Below are positions 26,760 to 35,538 of a DNA stretch of 64,000 nt, in pieces. Under the pieces are notes generated by a model that searched no databases, was not told the origin of the DNA, and saw nothing but the letters and a program-made list of their open reading frames with translations. A program made the translations under genes and the position numbers. Position 1 is the first letter of the stretch, and each line of letters opens with the position of its first letter. The stretch comes from Drouetiella hepatica Uher 2000/2452 (GTDB taxonomy: Bacteria > Cyanobacteriota > Cyanobacteriia > Elainellales > Elainellaceae), in assembly GCA_019359505.1 (NCBI GenBank), contig JAHHHD010000003.1, positions 124,001 to 188,000 on the forward strand. The letters run 5' to 3'.

Positions 26760-27878
26760 TCAGGATTCTATTGACGGTGTAGAGGGATAGTGCGGAAAAG
26801 TAGGCAAGCGAAAGCCGAAGATTGCGCCATTAGGAGAGCGGTTTTCTGCCCAAATTGTGCCCCCGTGAGCTTCAATAATTTGACGCGTTAAGTAAAGCCC
26901 TAGCCCAGAACCTTTAGCATGGCGATCGCTGTGTCCCTGATAAAATCGCTCAAATAGATGAGGAAGCTCTTCTTCAGTAATCCCGGCTCCGCTATCCATC
27001 ACCTTTGCCATCTGGCTTGAGGCATGAGATTCTAAAACGACCTCTACCTTGCCACCTCTGGGAGAGTGATTAATGGCATTAGTGAGCAAATTGGCAAATA
27101 CCCGTTGCAGTTGCAGAGCGTCGCCATTGACCCAGAGAAACCTGCGAAAGTCAGATTCTCCATAGCTAAAGGAGATATGCACTCGCCGACTTGCCGCCAA
27201 CTCCGTTAAGCTAGTTGCCACCTCTTCAACCAGCGCTACTAGGTCGGTGGGATTGTTTTGCAAAACCAGTCCTTCTGTGTCGTTGCGATAGACATCCAGC
27301 AGTGTTTCCACAAGCTGTAAGCTAGTCTGGTGGCTGCGCACGATCGTTGCCAAAACCTTTTGCTGCCTCAACGAAACTATGCCAAACGCGCTTTGCTGAA
27401 ATGCCTTGAGCGTTTCGATCGCCCCTAGCAGCGGAGTTTTTAGATCATGGGTCAGCGTCGAGACAAAATCTTCCCGCATATCTGCCAGCTTTTCTTGAGC
27501 CTGAAGCTTTGCCTGCTGCTGAGCTAAAGCCTCTTCATAGCAGCGGTTACGATCGCTCAACACCGCCGTCACCAGCATGGCTAAAACGGCGATCGCGCGG
27601 CTGGCAACAATTGAACTGCTCAGCACTCTGTTCTCTGGAAGCCAGGAGTTTAGCATCGTCAAGACTGCCGCAGTTAACGTAATTTTGACAGCATTTGTCC
27701 GACTGAGGCGAGAGGTGGCTAACAAGACTGGACCAATATAGAGATACCCAAACACGTATTCGGGCGGGGTGGAAAATTCAAGAATAATGACGGTAACAAA
27801 TAGCCCCAAAATAATCCAGAGCGTGCTCGTGCGAGGATCTCTGGCGATCGAAGATGGCTTAAACAATTTGAGATTCAT
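26760..27878 (-). CDS. Membrane sensor histidine kinase next to the kdp operon
   Basis: 372 residues from the ATG at 27878; an upstream in-frame TTG would add 15 residues. The N-terminal ~110 residues hold about four membrane helices (LWIILGLFVTVIILEF, YLYIGPVLLATS, and on to VLAMLVTAVLSDR), then a Gln-rich helix, then HisKA with His144 in STLTHDLKTPL. The ATPase domain follows (LLTNAINHSPRGG, VMDSGAGI, GSGLGLYLTRQIIE). No response regulator gene is adjacent. It is transcribed away from kdpA across a shared 424-base region. Because the KdpD encoded at 34432 lacks a kinase module, this protein is a candidate partner for potassium sensing (inference). Confidence 0.88.
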   Translation of the reverse strand: MNLKLFKPSSIARDPRTSTLWIILGLFVTVIILEFSTPPEYVFGYLYIGPVLLATSRLSRTNAVKITLTAAVLTMLNSWLPENRVLSSSIVASRAIAVLAMLVTAVLSDRNRCYEEALAQQQAKLQAQEKLADMREDFVSTLTHDLKTPLLGAIETLKAFQQSAFGIVSLRQQKVLATIVRSHQTSLQLVETLLDVYRNDTEGLVLQNNPTDLVALVEEVATSLTELAASRRVHISFSYGESDFRRFLWVNGDALQLQRVFANLLTNAINHSPRGGKVEVVLESHASSQMAKVMDSGAGITEEELPHLFERFYQGHSDRHAKGSGLGLYLTRQIIEAHGGTIWAENRSPNGAIFGFRLPTFPHYPSTPSIES

Positions 27879-27982
27879 CGATCGAGTAGTTGCCGTAAAT
27901 TTAATAGATTCGCAATAAAGCAAACTTATCTATTAAATTCTAAAAGCTATAGAAAATAAGAGGTTTTCAGACTAAAACGCAT

Positions 27983-28036: not shown

Positions 28037-28302
28037 GTTTTTCAATTAAAGCTATATCTTGTCATATAAAACCTGAATAGATTGCAACCTATATCTTGTG
28101 TTTCCTTTAGAAAGGCGAGATGATGAAATTTGAGAATCATTTGATTGATTTTATTAAGACCTCTACAGTCAAGGTTTGTCGCAAAAGTGTTGGCTTAGAA
28201 CGCAGTTGCGTCGTGCTATCTTCACCCATCTCATTAGCCCGATAAGATTGCCTTAACTAGAAAATCTTGACTTACTTAATCTACCTGGAGCCTTTTGGAT
28301 TC

Positions 28303-30012
28303 ATGTTTCAAGGATGGTTGCAAATTGCGTTGACGATCGCCCTATTCGTCGCGTTGGCTCCCACATTTGGGGGGTATATGGCTCGCGTGTATCTGGGACA
28401 TAAAACTCTGCTTGACCCAGTGTTGGTACCTGTAGAACGAATACTTTACTCGTTGACAGGGACTGAGACGAAGGAGGAGATGACAGGCTGGAAGTACGCC
28501 AGGGCGATTCTGTACAGTAACGTGGCTATGGCGCTACTGATCTTTTTTCTAATCATGAATCAGGGATGGTTGCCTTTAAATCCTACGGGTCTGGGTGCTC
28601 CAACCTGGGATACTGCCCTGCACACCACGATTTCTTTTATCACTAACACTAACCAGCAGCACTACTCTGGTGAGACAACCCTCAGCTATGGCAGTCAGAT
28701 GCTTGGCTTGGGATACCATATGTTTACGTCAGCGGCAACAGGTCTGGCGGTTGGGATCGCTTTCATTCGAGGTCTAACAGGCAGACCGCTAGGAAATTTC
28801 TACGTGGATCTGATTCGATCGATTACCAGGATTTTGTTGCCAATCAGCATTGTTGGTGCAGTAGCTTTAATTCTGTTGGGTGTGCCTGAAACGCTGGCAG
28901 GGCCAGTTGTGGTACCCACGCTCGAAAATCCGGCATTGAGTCAAGCGATCGCGCGGGGGCCAGTCGCTCATTTTGAAATTATCAAACAATTGGGAGAGAA
29001 TGGCGGCGGCTTCTTTGCGATTAACTCTGCCCATCCCTTTGAGAACCCTAACCCAGCCACTAATCTCATTCAGATTGTCGGTATGGTAGTCATTCCTTCG
29101 GCTTTTATCTACACCTATGGTGTATTTGCCAACAGTCGCAGGCAGGCTTGGTTGATTTACAGCATGGTGCTGGCGATTTACCTGCTATTTGTCACCTTAA
29201 CAGCAATAGGCGAGTATCAAGGAAACCCTGCTGTCAATTCTTTGCTAGGAAGCGTACAACCTAACTTAGAAGGAAAGGAGGTTCGCTTCGGCTGGGCGCA
29301 GTCTGCTTTGTTTGCCACCACGACAACAGGAACAATGTGTGGGGCAGTCAATAGCCTTCACGACTCATTCATGCCGCTTGGTGGCTTTGTCCTGTTGTCC
29401 AACCTGTTTTTGCAAATTATTTGGGGTGGGCAGGGAACTGGAACAGCTTACCTGTTTGCTTACCTGATCCTAGCTGTGTTTGTCACAGGGCTGATGGTAG
29501 GACGGACTCCAGAATTTCTGGGACGCAAAATTGAGAAGCGAGAGGTAGTTCTAGCCAGCTTTCTGATTTTGCTGGTACATCCTATCGCCATCTTGATTCC
29601 AGGAGCGATTTCCCTAGCATTCCCTGAAACGCTTTCAGGCATTAGCAACCCTGGGTTTCATGGTCTTAGCCAGGTCATCTACGAATATGCTTCAGCCGCA
29701 GCTAACAACGGTTCGGGCTTTGAAGGATTAGCAGATTCTCAACCTGCTTCTACAGGGCTGTGGTGGAACCTAAGCACCTGCTTCAGCTTATTATGTGGAC
29801 GCTATATTCCCATCATTGCCTTGCTGCTGCTAGCAGACAGCCTATCTCGTAAACAGCCTGTACCGATGACTGTTGGGACGCTTCGCACCGATACGTTTTT
29901 GTTCACAGGTGTGACTGCTGGCGTAGTGCTGATCCTGGGCGCCCTCACTTTCTTCCCGGTCTTGGCGTTAGGGCCGATCGCCGAAGCTTTTCAAATTGCT
30001 AAAGGCGGCTGA
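28303..30012 (+). CDS. kdpA: Potassium-transporting ATPase subunit A
   Basis: Ion-binding channel-like subunit of the high-affinity K+ pump. 569 residues from the ATG at 28303 ([15 protein letters not shown]), which fits the family N-terminus better than the in-frame TTG at 28267; GGAG lies 12 bases upstream. The four selectivity-filter loops are visible: [53 protein letters not shown] and [11 protein letters not shown]. About ten membrane helices. First gene of kdpABGC-kinase-kdpD. Confidence 0.95.
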
Positions 30013-30106: not shown

Positions 30107-32206
30107 ATGGAATCCAGCAACCAATTTTCATCGACTCCACCCCGCGCTCCAGGCGGCCCACGGGAATCTCGCAGACATACGCCCAAAGCCGATATGAGCG
30201 GACTCTATCAACGGGCTGTTAAAGAGGCTTTTATCAAACTTGATCCTCGGATTACCGTCAAAAATCCGGTGATGTTTATCGTCTGGGTCGGGACGATCGT
30301 GACCGCACTCGTGACCTTTAACCCAAATTTGTTTGGTAACGTTCCAGATACAGGCCTAAACCAGCAGATTTTTAATGGACTGATTACCTTCATCCTGTTT
30401 TTTACCCTTGTTTTCGCCAACTTTGCCGAAGCGGTTGCCGAAGGACGAGGCAAGGCGCAGGCAGATTCGCTTAGGGCAACGCGATCGGATACAGTTGCCC
30501 GCAAAATGCTGCCCGATGGCTCTGTGCAGGAAGTTAGCTCTACGGATTTGCGGCGGGGCGATCAGGTCAAGGTCATTGCTGGAGACATGATTCCCTCAGA
30601 CGGCGATGTGATTCAGGGCATTGGCTCAGTGGATGAGTCAGCTATTACTGGAGAATCGGCTCCCGTGCTGAAGCAACCTGGAACAGACATTGCCAGCTCG
30701 GTAACAGGCGGTACGCGTCTGTTATCAGATGAGCTAGTCATCCGCATTACTTCCGATCCGGGTAAGGGCTTTATCGATCGCATGATCGCCCTCGTGGAAG
30801 GTGCAGAGCGGTCGAAGACCCCGAACGAAATTGCCCTCACCGTGCTGCTGGTGGTGCTGACCCAGGTTTTCCTGATCGTGATCGCCACCATGTCTCCTCT
30901 AGCAAACTATGTGCAGTCTCCTACGACGATCGCTATTCTGATCGCGCTATTGGTTGCGCTGATTCCCACTACCATTGGCGGATTGCTGAGCGCTATTGGT
31001 ATCGCTGGCATGGATCGGGTAGCACAGTTTAATGTCATTGCCACTTCTGGACGGGCGGTAGAAGCCTGTGGAGATATCAACACACTGGTGCTGGATAAAA
31101 CCGGAACCATTACGTTGGGGAATCGGCTTGCCAGCCAATTTATTCCGATTAACGGCTATTCTGAACAGGCGGTTGCTCAAGCAGCTCTGGCAGCTAGCGT
31201 TTTTGATGAAACGCCTGAAGGACGATCGATCGTGCGGCTAGCAGAAGAAATGGGAGCCACCGTTGACTTCGATCGCAATGCGGCTGAGGGGGTCGAATTC
31301 TCGGCGCGGACTCGCATGAGCGGTACCAATTTACCTGATGGTGGCGAGGCGCGTAAGGGTGCAGTGGATGCCGTCAAGGGGTTTGTGCGATCGCGCGGGG
31401 GCACACTCTCTGCCGATCTCGACGCAGCCTATGAGCGAGTGTCGAGATTGGGCGGTACACCTTTAGCTGTTTGTAGAAATAGTGAGGTATACGGCATTAT
31501 CTACCTAAAAGATATTGTTAAACCCGGATTGCGAGAGCGTTTTGACCAGCTTCGCCGCATGGGGGTACGCACGATCATGCTGACGGGTGACAACCGAATT
31601 ACCGCTTCTGTGATTGCTGAAGAAGCAGGTGTGGATGATTTCATTGCGGAGGCTACGCCAGAAGATAAAATTGATGTCATTCGCCGAGAGCAGGCACAAG
31701 GCAAGCTCGTTGCCATGACGGGCGATGGCACGAATGATGCCCCGGCTCTAGCTCAAGCTAACGTTGGTGTGGCCATGAACTCTGGCACACAGGCGGCAAA
31801 GGAAGCCGCAAACATGGTGGATTTAGACTCTGACCCCACCAAGTTGATTGATCTAGTGGCGATCGGCAAACAGCTCCTGATTACGCGAGGCGCTTTGACC
31901 ACTTTTTCGATCGCCAATGATATTGCCAAATACTTTGCCATTATCCCGACAATCTTTGCGGCGGCAGGCATCGGCTCTCTGAACGTCATGGGGTTGAAGA
32001 GTCCGCAGTCGGCAATCATCTCAGCCTTGATCTATAACGCGCTGATTATTCTTGCCCTAATTCCTTTAGCGCTTAAAGGAGTAGAGTTTCGCCCGCTCAC
32101 CGCGAATCAGCTCCTGCAACGCAATATCTTAATCTATGGAGTGGGTGGCGTAATTGCTCCGTTTATCGCCATCAAGCTTATCGATCTGATTCTGCCCATT
32201 TCTTAA
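30107..32206 (+). CDS. kdpB: Potassium-transporting P-type ATPase subunit B
   Basis: Catalytic subunit that hydrolyses ATP to drive K+ uptake. 699 residues. The phosphorylation site is Asp330 in [13 protein letters not shown], the A-domain motif TGES is at 181-184, the hinge motif is [21 protein letters not shown], and the transmembrane [13 protein letters not shown] motif is present. Ser184 of TGES corresponds to E. coli KdpB Ser162, whose phosphorylation inhibits the pump. The N-terminus is about 20 residues longer than in E. coli and rich in Pro, Arg and Ser. Located 94 bases after kdpA. Confidence 0.97.
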
Positions 32207-32261: not shown

Positions 32262-32540
32262 ATGAAATCTCCCGCTCCTAATCAATACCTGATATCATTC
32301 TATTCCTCCCAAGCTTTCGAAGATATGGGTGAATTTTGGTCTGCTTGGCGTAGACGCAAGCTTCCCTCGTATCTGTTTTTAGCGCTATGCTTTAATACCC
32401 TCTTTGCGCCCGCAGTTTTGGCAGCTACCGGAGGAGAACTCGATCGCTTACAGGTCTGGGCATTGACTCTGCTTGGTATTGCCACTGTGTGCCTTTCTGC
32501 CTATCTTTTTGTGGTGATGTTTCAACCTGAAAGATTCTAA
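32262..32540 (+). CDS. kdpG: KdpG/KdpF-like small membrane subunit
   Basis: 92 residues with two predicted helices. The first (LPSYLFLALCFNTLFAPAVLAA) resembles a signal or anchor. The second (WALTLLGIATVCLSAYLFVVMF) ends in QPERF, very like the single helix plus AEAF/PERF end of E. coli KdpF, a subunit that stabilises the pump. Anabaena kdp operons carry an extra gene between kdpB and kdpC called kdpG; position and size match it. Met22 is an alternative start. Confidence 0.7.
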   Translation: MKSPAPNQYLISFYSSQAFEDMGEFWSAWRRRKLPSYLFLALCFNTLFAPAVLAATGGELDRLQVWALTLLGIATVCLSAYLFVVMFQPERF

Positions 32541-32582
32541 CTTCCATTCACTTTCCATTCCTTACCATGAGTTTTGTTAGCT

Positions 32583-33224
32583 ATGAGTTTTGCTAGAGAA
32601 GCCAGTAGAGCCGTTCGAACGACCTTTGTGCTTTGGCTGCTGACAGCCATTTTGTACCCCTTGGTGATGATTGCTTTTGGACAGCTCGTTTTTCCTTACC
32701 AAGCCAACGGCAGCTTGATTAAAAATGCGCAAGGTACTGTGGTAGGTTCTGCTCTCATTGGACAACCTTTCACATCCGATCGCTATTTCAACAGCCGCCC
32801 CAGCACCACTAGCTACAGCACGGCTGATCCTCAAAAAGACGATGCGGGTATTCTGAAAACCGGAGTTTCAGGAGCCAGTAACTTAGCACCCAGCAACTCT
32901 GCACTGCTCGATCGCATCCAGGGTAAAAGCGATCCAGATCCGAGTCAGGCGATCGCAGGAGACTTACCCAGACTTGAACAGGCAGGAATTAAACCCACTG
33001 CCGATCTACTCTACACATCTGGTTCTAGCCTTGACCCCCATATCACCGTAGAGGGCGCTCGTAATCAGGTGACGCGAGTTGCAGCCGCTAGGAACCTTCA
33101 ACCTATCCAGCTTGAGCCATTGATTGCTCAAAACACCGAGGGGCGATTTTTGGGTATTTTTGGCGAACCCGGCGTTAATGTCCTTAAGCTCAATCTAGCG
33201 CTGGATGCTCTACAGCCAGCTTAG
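32583..33224 (+). CDS. kdpC: Potassium-transporting ATPase subunit C
   Basis: 213 residues from MSFAREASRAVRTTF. One N-terminal helix (LLTAILYPLVMIAFGQLVF) precedes a periplasmic domain with the family signatures NGSLI, GSALIGQPFTSDRYFNSRPS, LYTSGSSLDPHIT and LGIFGEPGVNVL. The start is unusual. A 16-base tandem duplication puts a second ATGAGTTTTG at 32567, out of frame, whose nine-codon reading ends at a TAG overlapping the real start. The TTG at 32574 is a less likely start. Stabilises the KdpA/KdpB complex. Confidence 0.93.
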   Translation: MSFAREASRAVRTTFVLWLLTAILYPLVMIAFGQLVFPYQANGSLIKNAQGTVVGSALIGQPFTSDRYFNSRPSTTSYSTADPQKDDAGILKTGVSGASNLAPSNSALLDRIQGKSDPDPSQAIAGDLPRLEQAGIKPTADLLYTSGSSLDPHITVEGARNQVTRVAAARNLQPIQLEPLIAQNTEGRFLGIFGEPGVNVLKLNLALDALQPA

Positions 33225-33312: not shown

Positions 33313-34371
33313 ATGAGCCATAACCTCCCAGTTTCAACCTCTTCACATGGCTTTTCGGGCGATAATCTCTCCGAAAATTTTCCGAGTAGCGGACTGCTTC
33401 AAAACCGCTATCGCCTCCACAAATGGATTGGACAGGGCGGATTCGGCAAAACTTTTCTGGCATTCGATCAGCTCCAGCCCGCTCAGCCGTACTGCGTAAT
33501 TAAGCAGATTATGTCTCCTCTGCCAACCTGCGAAAGTCAGCCCAGAAATGCGCTGCGGCAGGAAGGTCTGAGATTAGCAGAATTGGGACAACATCCTCAG
33601 ATTCCAGCCCTGCTAGACCTGTTTGAACAGGGTGGACAGGGTTATCTGGTGCAAGAGTTTATTGAGGGTCAGACGCTAGAGCAAGAATTGGCTGAGGCGG
33701 GCGCGTTTAAGGCTGCTCAAATTCGCCAACTTCTCACCCAGCTATTGCCCGTTTTGCAATTCATCCACGATCGCCATATCATTCACCGCGACATCAAACC
33801 TGCAAACATCATTCGCCACCGTCAGGATGGACAGCTTGTTCTAGTAGACTTTGGTGCTGCCAAAGCGATCGCCGAGGATTTACCTATCCAGACAGGCACC
33901 TTAATTGGTAGCGCCGAGTATGCTGCACCTGAGCAAACTCGCGGCAGGGCGGTCTTCGCTAGCGATCTTTATAGTTTAGGAGTTACTTGTATTCATTTAC
34001 TGACTCAAATGCCCCCTTTTGATCTATTTGATACAGGTGAGGATGCCTGGAACTGGCAAAACTTTCTGCCTCATCCGATCGATTCCTCTCTCGCTCATAT
34101 CCTTAATCGACTGTTGCAACCCGCAATAAATCGCCGCTATCAGTTTGCGTCAGAGGTGCTGGAGGATTTGACTTTTTTGCCGCAGGCTGAGGTAAATCCT
34201 GCCTCAGGCGCTTCGAGTTCAGTTTCAGCTACTGTCTATGAGCCGCTGACCCGCAAGTGGCATCATATTTCCGATCTGCGAGAACAGTCTGAGTTAGTGT
34301 GGGCTGTTGCACCATTTTTACGTCCTCATGCGATCGACTTTCCATTTACAGATTGCAAAAACTTCTTTTAA
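33313..34371 (+). CDS. Hanks-type Ser/Thr protein kinase inside the kdp cluster
   Basis: 352 residues with a complete kinase domain at about 33-290. Glycine loop IGQGGFGKTF, Lys64 in VIKQ, catalytic loop HRDIKPANI (158-166, Asp160), metal-binding DFG at 179-181, and AAPEQ at the end of the activation segment. All catalytic residues are present, so it should be active. The C-terminal 60 residues are a short tail without membrane helix, PASTA, WD40 or TPR repeats, so it is cytoplasmic. It lies 88 bases after kdpC and 60 bases before kdpD on the same strand, so co-expression with the K+ pump is likely. KdpB is an obvious candidate substrate (inference). Confidence 0.9.
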   Translation: MSHNLPVSTSSHGFSGDNLSENFPSSGLLQNRYRLHKWIGQGGFGKTFLAFDQLQPAQPYCVIKQIMSPLPTCESQPRNALRQEGLRLAELGQHPQIPALLDLFEQGGQGYLVQEFIEGQTLEQELAEAGAFKAAQIRQLLTQLLPVLQFIHDRHIIHRDIKPANIIRHRQDGQLVLVDFGAAKAIAEDLPIQTGTLIGSAEYAAPEQTRGRAVFASDLYSLGVTCIHLLTQMPPFDLFDTGEDAWNWQNFLPHPIDSSLAHILNRLLQPAINRRYQFASEVLEDLTFLPQAEVNPASGASSSVSATVYEPLTRKWHHISDLREQSELVWAVAPFLRPHAIDFPFTDCKNFF

Positions 34372-34431: not shown

Positions 34432-35538
34432 ATGTACAATCCATCCCCCGATACACTCTATAGCAGCAGCACTCGTAAAGGTAAACATAAGATCTTCATC
34501 GGCATGGCTCCGGGTGTGGGCAAGACCTATAAAATGCTGGAAGAAGGACATCGTCTGAAACGAGAGGGCATAGATGTTGTCGTTGGGCTTCTAGAAACCC
34601 ATCGCCGTAAAGAGACGGCAGAAAAGTCGATTGGCTTAGAAATCCTCCCTCGCAAGCATGTTATGCACTCAGGGATTGTCCTTGAAGAAATGGATACAGA
34701 TGCTATCTTGGCGCGTCGTCCGCAGCTTGTGCTAGTAGATGAGTTAGCACACACCAATGTACCTGGCTCAGAACGAGAAAAACGCTACCAGGATGTTGAA
34801 GCTATCTTGAATGCGGGAATTGATGTTTACTCCACAGTTAACATTCAGCATCAGGAAAGCTTGAACGATCTGGTGGCTAGAATCACGGGAGTTGTCGTTC
34901 GCGAGCGTGTACCCGATCGCATTATTGAAAGTGCTGATGAAATTGTTGTCGTAGACGTTACGCCGGAAACGCTGCAAGAACGTCTGCGGGACGGCAAAAT
35001 CTATGCTCCTGAAAAAATTGAACAATCGCTGCAAAACTTTTTTCAGCGAGGAAACCTGATTGCATTGCGTGAGCTGGCTCTACGAGAGATCGCAGATAAT
35101 GTCGAAGCTAACGGCATGGAAACTGCTACCAGCAGGCAGTTTTGTAATATTCACGAACGGGTGCTGGTCTGCATTTCCACCAATCCTAACGCCATACAGC
35201 TCCTCCGTCGCGGCGCTCGCATTGCAGACTACATGAAGGCTCCCCTTTCAGTTCTGTTCGTCAACACTTCAGACCGCTTTTTGACTAAAACTGAGGCGCT
35301 GCATATAGAAACTTGCGAACGCTTGTGCAAAGAGTTTGAAGGTGAGTTTTTGCGCGTTGTTCATGTCGATATTGCCGAAGCGATCGCCCAGGTTGCCAAA
35401 GAGCGCCGAATTACTCAGGTCGTACTGGGAAAAACCCAAAAAGCAAGATGGAAAATTTTGCTCAAAGGATCATTTGTGGATCGATTGATGCGATCGCTCC
35501 ACGAAGTTGATATTCACATCATTGAAACAGGGAATTAA
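34432..35538 (+). CDS. kdpD: Truncated KdpD (N-terminal KdpD plus USP domain, no kinase)
   Basis: 368 residues. The N-terminal KdpD domain has Walker A GMAPGVGKT (24-32) and Walker B LVLVDELAHTN, followed by YSTVNIQHQESLND. From about 240 a universal-stress-protein domain follows (ERVLVCISTNPNAIQLLRRG to HEVDIHIIE). The DUF4118 helices, GAF and histidine kinase modules of E. coli KdpD are missing, as is normal for cyanobacterial KdpD. It cannot autophosphorylate, so signalling needs a partner; no kdpE is present. Last gene of the cluster. Confidence 0.93.
   Translation: MYNPSPDTLYSSSTRKGKHKIFIGMAPGVGKTYKMLEEGHRLKREGIDVVVGLLETHRRKETAEKSIGLEILPRKHVMHSGIVLEEMDTDAILARRPQLVLVDELAHTNVPGSEREKRYQDVEAILNAGIDVYSTVNIQHQESLNDLVARITGVVVRERVPDRIIESADEIVVVDVTPETLQERLRDGKIYAPEKIEQSLQNFFQRGNLIALRELALREIADNVEANGMETATSRQFCNIHERVLVCISTNPNAIQLLRRGARIADYMKAPLSVLFVNTSDRFLTKTEALHIETCERLCKEFEGEFLRVVHVDIAEAIAQVAKERRITQVVLGKTQKARWKILLKGSFVDRLMRSLHEVDIHIIETGN

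Follow-up and report, generated by a model that had tools for sequence, protein, structure and literature searches.

A family of Hanks-type serine/threonine kinases linked to the kdp operon of cyanobacteria, a putative second layer of phosphorylation control on the Kdp potassium pump

Why does the operon of a potassium pump that has KdpD also carry the gene of a second, unrelated kinase, and on which protein would that kinase act? This question is raised by the window, by which we mean the whole stretch of 64,000 nucleotides analyzed from Drouetiella hepatica Uher 2000/2452, where a Ser/Thr kinase gene lies within a kdp cluster. The features on which the argument rests are as follows (window coordinates).

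26760..27923, minus strand: sensor histidine kinase gene divergent from kdpA (HisKA/HATPase_c; found at the same place in many relatives)
28267..30012, plus strand: kdpA (PF03814, E 2.5e-228)
30107..32206, plus strand: kdpB (PF00122 and PF00702; alignment to E. coli KdpB)
30647..30658, plus strand: TGES motif of KdpB, with Ser184 equivalent to E. coli Ser162 (alignment to E. coli KdpB)
32262..32540, plus strand: gene of a small membrane subunit, kdpF/kdpG, 92 aa (open reading frame; homologues at the same place in relatives)
32574..33224, plus strand: kdpC (PF02669, E 1.4e-63)
33313..34371, plus strand: kdp-linked Hanks-type Ser/Thr kinase, 352 aa (open reading frame with ATG start; Pkinase PF00069; 536 bits with the family profile)
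33409..34143, plus strand: kinase domain, residues 33-277, with the full catalytic set (Pfam and alignment)
34228..34260, plus strand: tail motif ATVYEPLTRKW (family pattern (A/V)-T-(V/I/L)-(F/Y)-x-P-x-T-x-x-W)
34261..34371, plus strand: end of the tail, site of a transmembrane helix in relatives (hydropathy; no helix here)
34432..35538, plus strand: short KdpD of 368 aa, a KdpD domain with Usp and without histidine kinase (PF02702, E 2.1e-98; Usp, E 4.8e-9)
34501..34527, plus strand: Walker A of KdpD, GMAPGVGKT (G-x5-GKT; comparison with E. coli)
34738..34743, plus strand: Walker B of KdpD, D103-E104 (comparison with E. coli)

The kinase gene is intact and stands between kdpC and kdpD, as an earlier sequence-only reading of this DNA had stated, starting 88 nt downstream of the kdpC stop and ending 60 nt ahead of the kdpD ATG, with all three genes on one strand. 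Its product matches Pkinase with E 1.1e-38, and the further claim that every catalytic residue is present is borne out by alignment: the glycine loop (G40/G42/F44/G45), K64, E84, H158-R159-D160, N165, D179-F180-G181, P206-E207 and D218 are all in place, and this set is invariant across 12 aligned related kinases. Judged by domain and residues, the protein is a Hanks-type Ser/Thr protein kinase, with phosphotransfer activity predicted. A profile of the tail recovers the window kinase at E 2.5e-17, the window protein being one of its nine rows, and no membrane helix follows the tail motif in any of the three plus-strand frames (19-residue hydropathy maximum 0.88-0.93). The gene at the kdpF/kdpG place in Trichormus variabilis is annotated as subunit F. 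A response regulator gene also adjoins the divergent histidine kinase of T. variabilis; beyond the window histidine kinase, none was recognized by eye among open reading frames of at least 110 aa within ~5 kb. The window genome (6.4 Mb) holds 27 Pkinase matches, 26 of them above the family cut-off, and one diadenylate cyclase domain.

Is the position between kdpC and kdpD peculiar to this strain? In the window's own family KdpC was found in 18 of 36 genomes, and the kinase accompanies it in two of these 18, the window genome and the same-genus G200, each with the gene between kdpC and kdpD. G199, the third and nearest congener that has kdp, shows a gap of ~350 nt there and no kinase. Among 80 named loci seeded by the window KdpD, 68 show kdpC and two carry the kinase; it stands between kdpC and kdpD in L068, by its length the same contig as in G200, and a related kinase is divergent from kdpA in L133 (Pseudanabaena frigida). 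A survey seeded by KdpD may have missed loci where the kinase occupies the usual place of kdpD. When 60 loci across the class were seeded by KdpC instead, the kinase followed kdpC directly in four, all from family f14 (G283, G291, G298, G415), and a reading of all 31 KdpC-bearing f14 genomes gave an intact kinase after kdpC in four (G283, G321, G415, G291). The G298 copy is incomplete, its frame stopping ~35 nt short of the contig end, and G403 has a degenerate fragment after kdpC (L214, 6825-7214, plus strand) with HPD for HRD. In G232, of family f40, an 84-aa frame right after kdpC (L149, 6667-6918, plus strand) matches the tail at E 8.9e-6 and the kinase domain is gone; this piece looks like a kinase remnant in a fifth family. 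Given its patchy occurrence (2/18 in the window's family, 2/80 KdpD-seeded, 4/60 across the class, 4/31 in f14), the kinase is dispensable. The idea that the linkage is confined to this genus, which the 2/18 genomes and 2/80 loci had suggested, was rejected on the KdpC-seeded survey and on the searches by profile in two sets of genomes described below.

From the side of the kinase the linkage is much tighter. Profile A1, built from eight of these kinases including the window protein, was run on a sample of 388 genomes from the class with up to four candidates scored per genome, so that members number at least 11: these matched at 488 bits or more, followed by a step to 451. The window kinase, itself one of the eight profile rows, falls within these top 11, and 10 of the 11 adjoin kdp genes. 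The kinase follows kdpC in G000, G200, G283, G321, G415, G291, G127 (f6) and G412 (f26); in G300, whose contig is that of L133, and in G317 (f26) it is divergent from kdpA. G127, G412 and G317 lay outside the profile, and all three are kdp-linked. The eleventh, from G419, is the exception: the 12 kb read contain no kdp gene, though the contig runs out 2.6 kb past the kinase, and the kdpC of that genome is located on a different contig. Over 14 kb, no kdp gene accompanies the 451-bit match (L290). Profile A3 (12 rows) was then searched against the 217 genomes of the family of G127, with up to eight candidates scored per genome; at least 22 kinases reached 470 bits, and the scores then stepped down to 452. 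All 22 of these top matches lie beside kdp, 20 directly after kdpC and two (G672, G564) directly before kdpD; the profile rows include G127 and a near relative of G681, and the other 20 matches were outside the profile. As controls, 14 paralogues at 438-452 bits were taken from the 25 lower-scoring places that the A3 search listed, and in the stretches read (12.0-15.4 kb) none of the 14 had a kdp gene.

A protein search of 72,556 plasmids returned three records at E 1e-60 or better, from T. variabilis 0441, T. variabilis ATCC 29413 and Pseudanabaena galeata, the last a generic kinase away from kdp. Plasmid A of ATCC 29413, which is typed conjugative, has the order kdpA, kdpB, subunit F, kdpC, an 82-aa hypothetical gene and the kinase (AVA_RS27015, NC_007410.1 225219-226589). 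Genes of a histidine kinase and a response regulator lie upstream in divergent orientation. The P. galeata plasmid kinase and a kinase near kdp in Pseudanabaena CAN_BIN31 (L124, 379 bits) were set aside as generic paralogues and left out of the count.

The class set contributes 11 intact members and the second set another 21; with ATCC 29413 they make 33, a tally that leaves out G298, G403 and G232 and in which T. variabilis 0441 (inferred to be G681) and ATCC 29413 are near-duplicates. Thirty-two of the 33 lie beside kdp, spread over four cyanobacterial families, vs. none of the 14 controls: 28 after kdpC on the same strand, two divergent from kdpA, two beside kdpD only and one unlinked. Among the 28, measured to the first ATG of the frame, all except G412 (820 nt) start within 325 nt of kdpC. 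By our estimate a gene would adjoin kdp by chance with a frequency of ~0.1-0.2%, taking a locus of ~10 kb, 1 kb on each side included, in a genome of 5-10 Mb. The presence of this kinase family next to kdp in four families of cyanobacteria refutes a linkage confined to this strain, and the neighborhood check that the sequence-only reading had proposed comes out in its favor. Two side observations concern the layout. In G412 the order is rearranged to kdpB-kdpA-kdpC with low-scoring KdpA and KdpC, and the family's kinase is still next (L287, 1932-6881, plus strand). Some Nostocaceae members have a kdpC-kinase gap of ~285-322 nt (L325, 11663-11911; L339-L341, L343-L346, L349, L351), which in T. 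variabilis ATCC 29413 holds the annotated 82-aa hypothetical gene.

We defined the kdp-linked family by clade, tail and position; a helix is usual in it but not defining. In a FastTree phylogeny of 63 kinase domains, the kdp-linked kinases of the window's family and f14 form one clade of 10 tips (support 0.989) with L133 and one unlinked kinase (G419). IQ-TREE on 59 domains grouped 10 of 11 kdp-linked kinases, the window's and nine others, at 86/52, with G291 and G419 not firmly placed; a single clade of all 12 kinases is compatible with the data (p-AU 0.39), but this is no proof. The profile score sets the kdp-linked kinases apart from generic cyanobacterial kinases, and predicted architecture does likewise. 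By regex, the tail motif around ATVFxPxTQxW is found in 8 of 11 class-set members (it is absent from three f26 members), in 16 of 21 second-set members and in none of the 14 paralogue controls, and the tail profile detects the tail in 20 of the 21. A C-terminal hydrophobic stretch is present in the 10 class-set members other than the window (Kyte-Doolittle at least 2.0) and in all 21 second-set members (at least 1.84), vs. none of the 14 controls (at most 1.11). Helix and tail, as predicted from the proteins, thus separate the family from the controls. Conversely, a 4-Cys pattern is absent from all 21 second-set members and present in 13 of the 14 controls, and the NCBIfam 4-Cys prefix (NF045510) matched paralogue L248 but neither the window kinase nor that of T. 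variabilis.

If the kinase belongs to kdp, the next question is what it phosphorylates. The sequence-only reading had taken it for a dedicated kinase that silences or tunes the pump, pointing to a KdpB serine equivalent to one whose kinase was said to be unassigned in E. coli. KdpB does keep this residue, T181-G182-E183-S184 aligning with E. coli KdpB 159-162, and phosphorylation of Ser162 inhibits the E. coli pump (PMC7535926). TGES is a conserved catalytic motif of P-type ATPases in which the serine is the most variable letter across the superfamily (PMC7535926), and its presence in 158 of 160 KdpB proteins longer than 500 aa is therefore non-trivial. However, only about a dozen of these KdpB come from kinase-bearing loci, and as most TGES-bearing KdpB come from loci without the kinase, the motif is no pointer to the Hanks kinase; its near-constant serine fits control by KdpD. 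The statement that the Ser162 kinase is unassigned is also out of date, since PMC11018627 ascribes the reaction, as of 2024, to the N-terminal KdpD domain of KdpD. The same paper describes a short KdpD/Usp of Deinococcus geothermalis that phosphorylates the TGES serine of E. coli KdpB under c-di-AMP, attributes the specificity of the reaction to KdpB Glu161 and Walker B geometry, and counts Cyanobacteriota among the phyla with mainly the short KdpD/Usp form (PMC11018627).

The window's short KdpD is just such a protein and is likely an atypical Ser kinase for KdpB, as it has GKT (30-32), D103-E104 and the adenine-contact Arg (R184) all in place when compared with E. coli. The position of the other adenine contact, E. 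coli Trp39, is Tyr33 in the window. GKT, DE and Arg also occur in every one of the 26 KdpD compared from genomes with the kinase (the window KdpD among them), where the Trp39 position holds Tyr (22) or Cys (4). The nearest NCBIfam model for the window KdpD (452 bits, below its cut-off of 550) bears the name "KdpD-like non-kinase potassium sensor," which the findings of PMC11018627 make doubtful. A whole-genome search found KdpD in 12 of the 13 kinase-bearing genomes that it covered, a set that includes G403 and the incomplete-kinase G298 (the one exception). On this count the Hanks kinase adds to KdpD, and the idea that it replaces KdpD was rejected on the same count together with the conserved GKT, DE and Arg. 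With linkage to kdp and a conserved inhibitory serine in its favor, and an occupied reaction, intact KdpD residues and TGES without the kinase against it, phosphorylation of Ser184 by the Hanks kinase as the pump's off-switch seems to us very improbable indeed. The proposal of a dedicated, pump-silencing kinase is thus upheld in its dedication to kdp, through the linkage, but not as the missing Ser184 kinase. We also observed that three f14 genomes with KdpC (G316, G298, G423; G316 is a single contig) have no KdpD domain by whole-genome search, so that their pumps would lack the KdpD serine kinase; G316 and G423 also have no kinase of the kdp-linked family beside kdpC.

The kinase might target the regulators rather than the pump, either KdpD or the divergent histidine kinase with its response regulator, and so adjust kdp transcription or the Ser-kinase activity of KdpD. 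The kinase adjoins kdpD and not kdpC in G672 and G564, the kdpD open frame (stop to stop) begins ~8 nt after the kinase stop in G656 and G654, and in the window the kdpD ATG comes 60 nt after it; in addition, the KdpD domain near the kinase is unusually divergent in 12 Nostocaceae loci, with 63-72% identity to the window's vs. 76-83% in most others. Yet kdpC lies directly upstream in 28 of the 33 members, and in three f14 genomes (G283, G321, G415) kdpD and a histidine kinase gene have moved to another contig (L224, L227, L228) while the Hanks kinase remains with kdpABC, which favors the pump as its partner. We regard the regulators as an unlikely primary target. The divergent Nostocaceae loci are L339, L340, L344, L347, L348, L350 and L352-L357, four of them with Cys at the Trp39 position. 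Separately, four f14 genomes (L224, L227, L228, L229) have another Ser/Thr kinase gene ~2.5 kb from the relocated kdpD and histidine kinase genes, an open frame of ~530-550 aa scoring 114-120 bits and outside the kdp-linked family.

The kinase could also be a mere passenger of a mobile kdp cassette, without any role specific to Kdp. One copy does sit on the conjugative-type plasmid, and on a FastTree phylogeny of KdpB and KdpC from 162 loci the 13 loci labeled for the kinase, partial and degenerate copies included, imply no fewer than 10 gains or losses, or 11 if the G232 remnant is counted. The family is patchy through frequent loss, horizontal movement or both, and the plasmid copy favors some transfer. 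Passive linkage should decay, however, yet 32 of the 33 intact members are linked, across four families and in three arrangements, with the kinase downstream of kdpC, divergent from kdpA or ahead of kdpD, and the kinase bears a sign of purifying selection: between the window and G200 the kinase domain has a dN of 0.18 with synonymous change saturated. Hitchhiking is accordingly a decidedly improbable account of the family. For the window copy alone one might think of a decaying relic, as its helix is gone in all three plus-strand frames and the family is often lost, with the degenerate G403 copy and the G232 remnant as examples. The open frame, complete catalytic residues and preserved tail motif speak against decay, as does the low dN, although KdpC (0.07) and KdpD (0.08) are lower still, and we consider a relic quite improbable.

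What remains is a kinase that, on the evidence of linkage, is very probably dedicated to the Kdp pump. That it acts directly on the Kdp complex or its regulators is, in our view, the best explanation, held with moderate confidence. It probably adds a second layer of phosphorylation, with a putative substrate in the pump or among its regulators and a site different from Ser184. In the mechanism that we propose, the kinase would be co-produced with the pump under K+ scarcity and would phosphorylate a cytosolic part of the Kdp complex, with pump subunits as the first candidates and KdpD or the histidine kinase as the second; co-expression and phosphorylation of a Kdp protein are here inferred from the established behavior of operon-encoded regulators. 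The target site would probably be other than the TGES serine, and the effect would be to tune K+ uptake alongside KdpD. In the window strain, where the membrane helix has been lost, the kinase would work as a soluble or recruited enzyme. A more specific version, in which each such kdp operon has two unrelated kinases, KdpD at the TGES serine and a tethered Hanks kinase at a different cytosolic site of the pump, is offered tentatively and may well not hold as stated. A screen of 235 Ser/Thr sites in KdpA, KdpB, KdpC and KdpD for association with the kinase gave no convincing cytosolic site; the best, KdpC Ser80 (12/12 kinase-linked vs. 36/167), probably reflects relatedness. Ser80 falls within a part of KdpC that we take, from its topology, to be periplasmic. 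A structure model of the kinase, predicted with three sequences as input, had a mean pLDDT of 36 and was discarded.

Among known systems, a sequence-profile comparison with solved bacterial structures places the kinase domains of StkP (9ru3, E 8.8e-45) and PknB closest. Kinases of the PknB/StkP type presumably share the membrane-anchored layout predicted in relatives of the window kinase. Unlike the StkP/PknB PASTA kinases, the window protein scores only 155 bits with NF033483 (cut-off 450), and Pfam finds kinase-type domains only and no PASTA. Its kinase domain belongs to the same subfamily as the 4-Cys-prefix Hanks kinases of the NF045510 class, and its nearest paralogues are ~50-60% identical, but the window kinase is without the 4-Cys prefix, its relatives have the tail motif and helix, and the 14 paralogues are away from kdp. 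A further likeness is to the KdpD Ser/His kinase and the short KdpD/Usp, also kdp-operon kinases, of which the KdpD one phosphorylates and inhibits the pump (PMC11018627); the KdpD site is formed by Walker A and B (a P-loop), whereas the window kinase is of the unrelated Hanks type and additional to KdpD. In the open-licence literature covered by title and start of abstract, no report of a Hanks kinase in a kdp cluster was found; an earlier mention in Anabaena (PMC1214631) is possible. Transporter-linked regulatory kinases are already known, and what the results point to as new is a Hanks kinase family as a second, unrelated kdp-linked kinase.

Kdp is a textbook example of how a pump's own sensor kinase controls it; phosphorylation control of Kdp was ascribed to KdpD only in 2024 (PMC11018627). 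If the two-kinase reading is true, the Hanks kinase would answer a different signal, read through the conserved tail motif. As the kdp-linked family includes T. variabilis ATCC 29413, a two-kinase model of one P-type ATPase is directly testable. For the cyanobacteria, with their many Hanks kinases (the 27 matches of the window genome are a case in point), the linkage to kdp offers a likely pathway for one of them.
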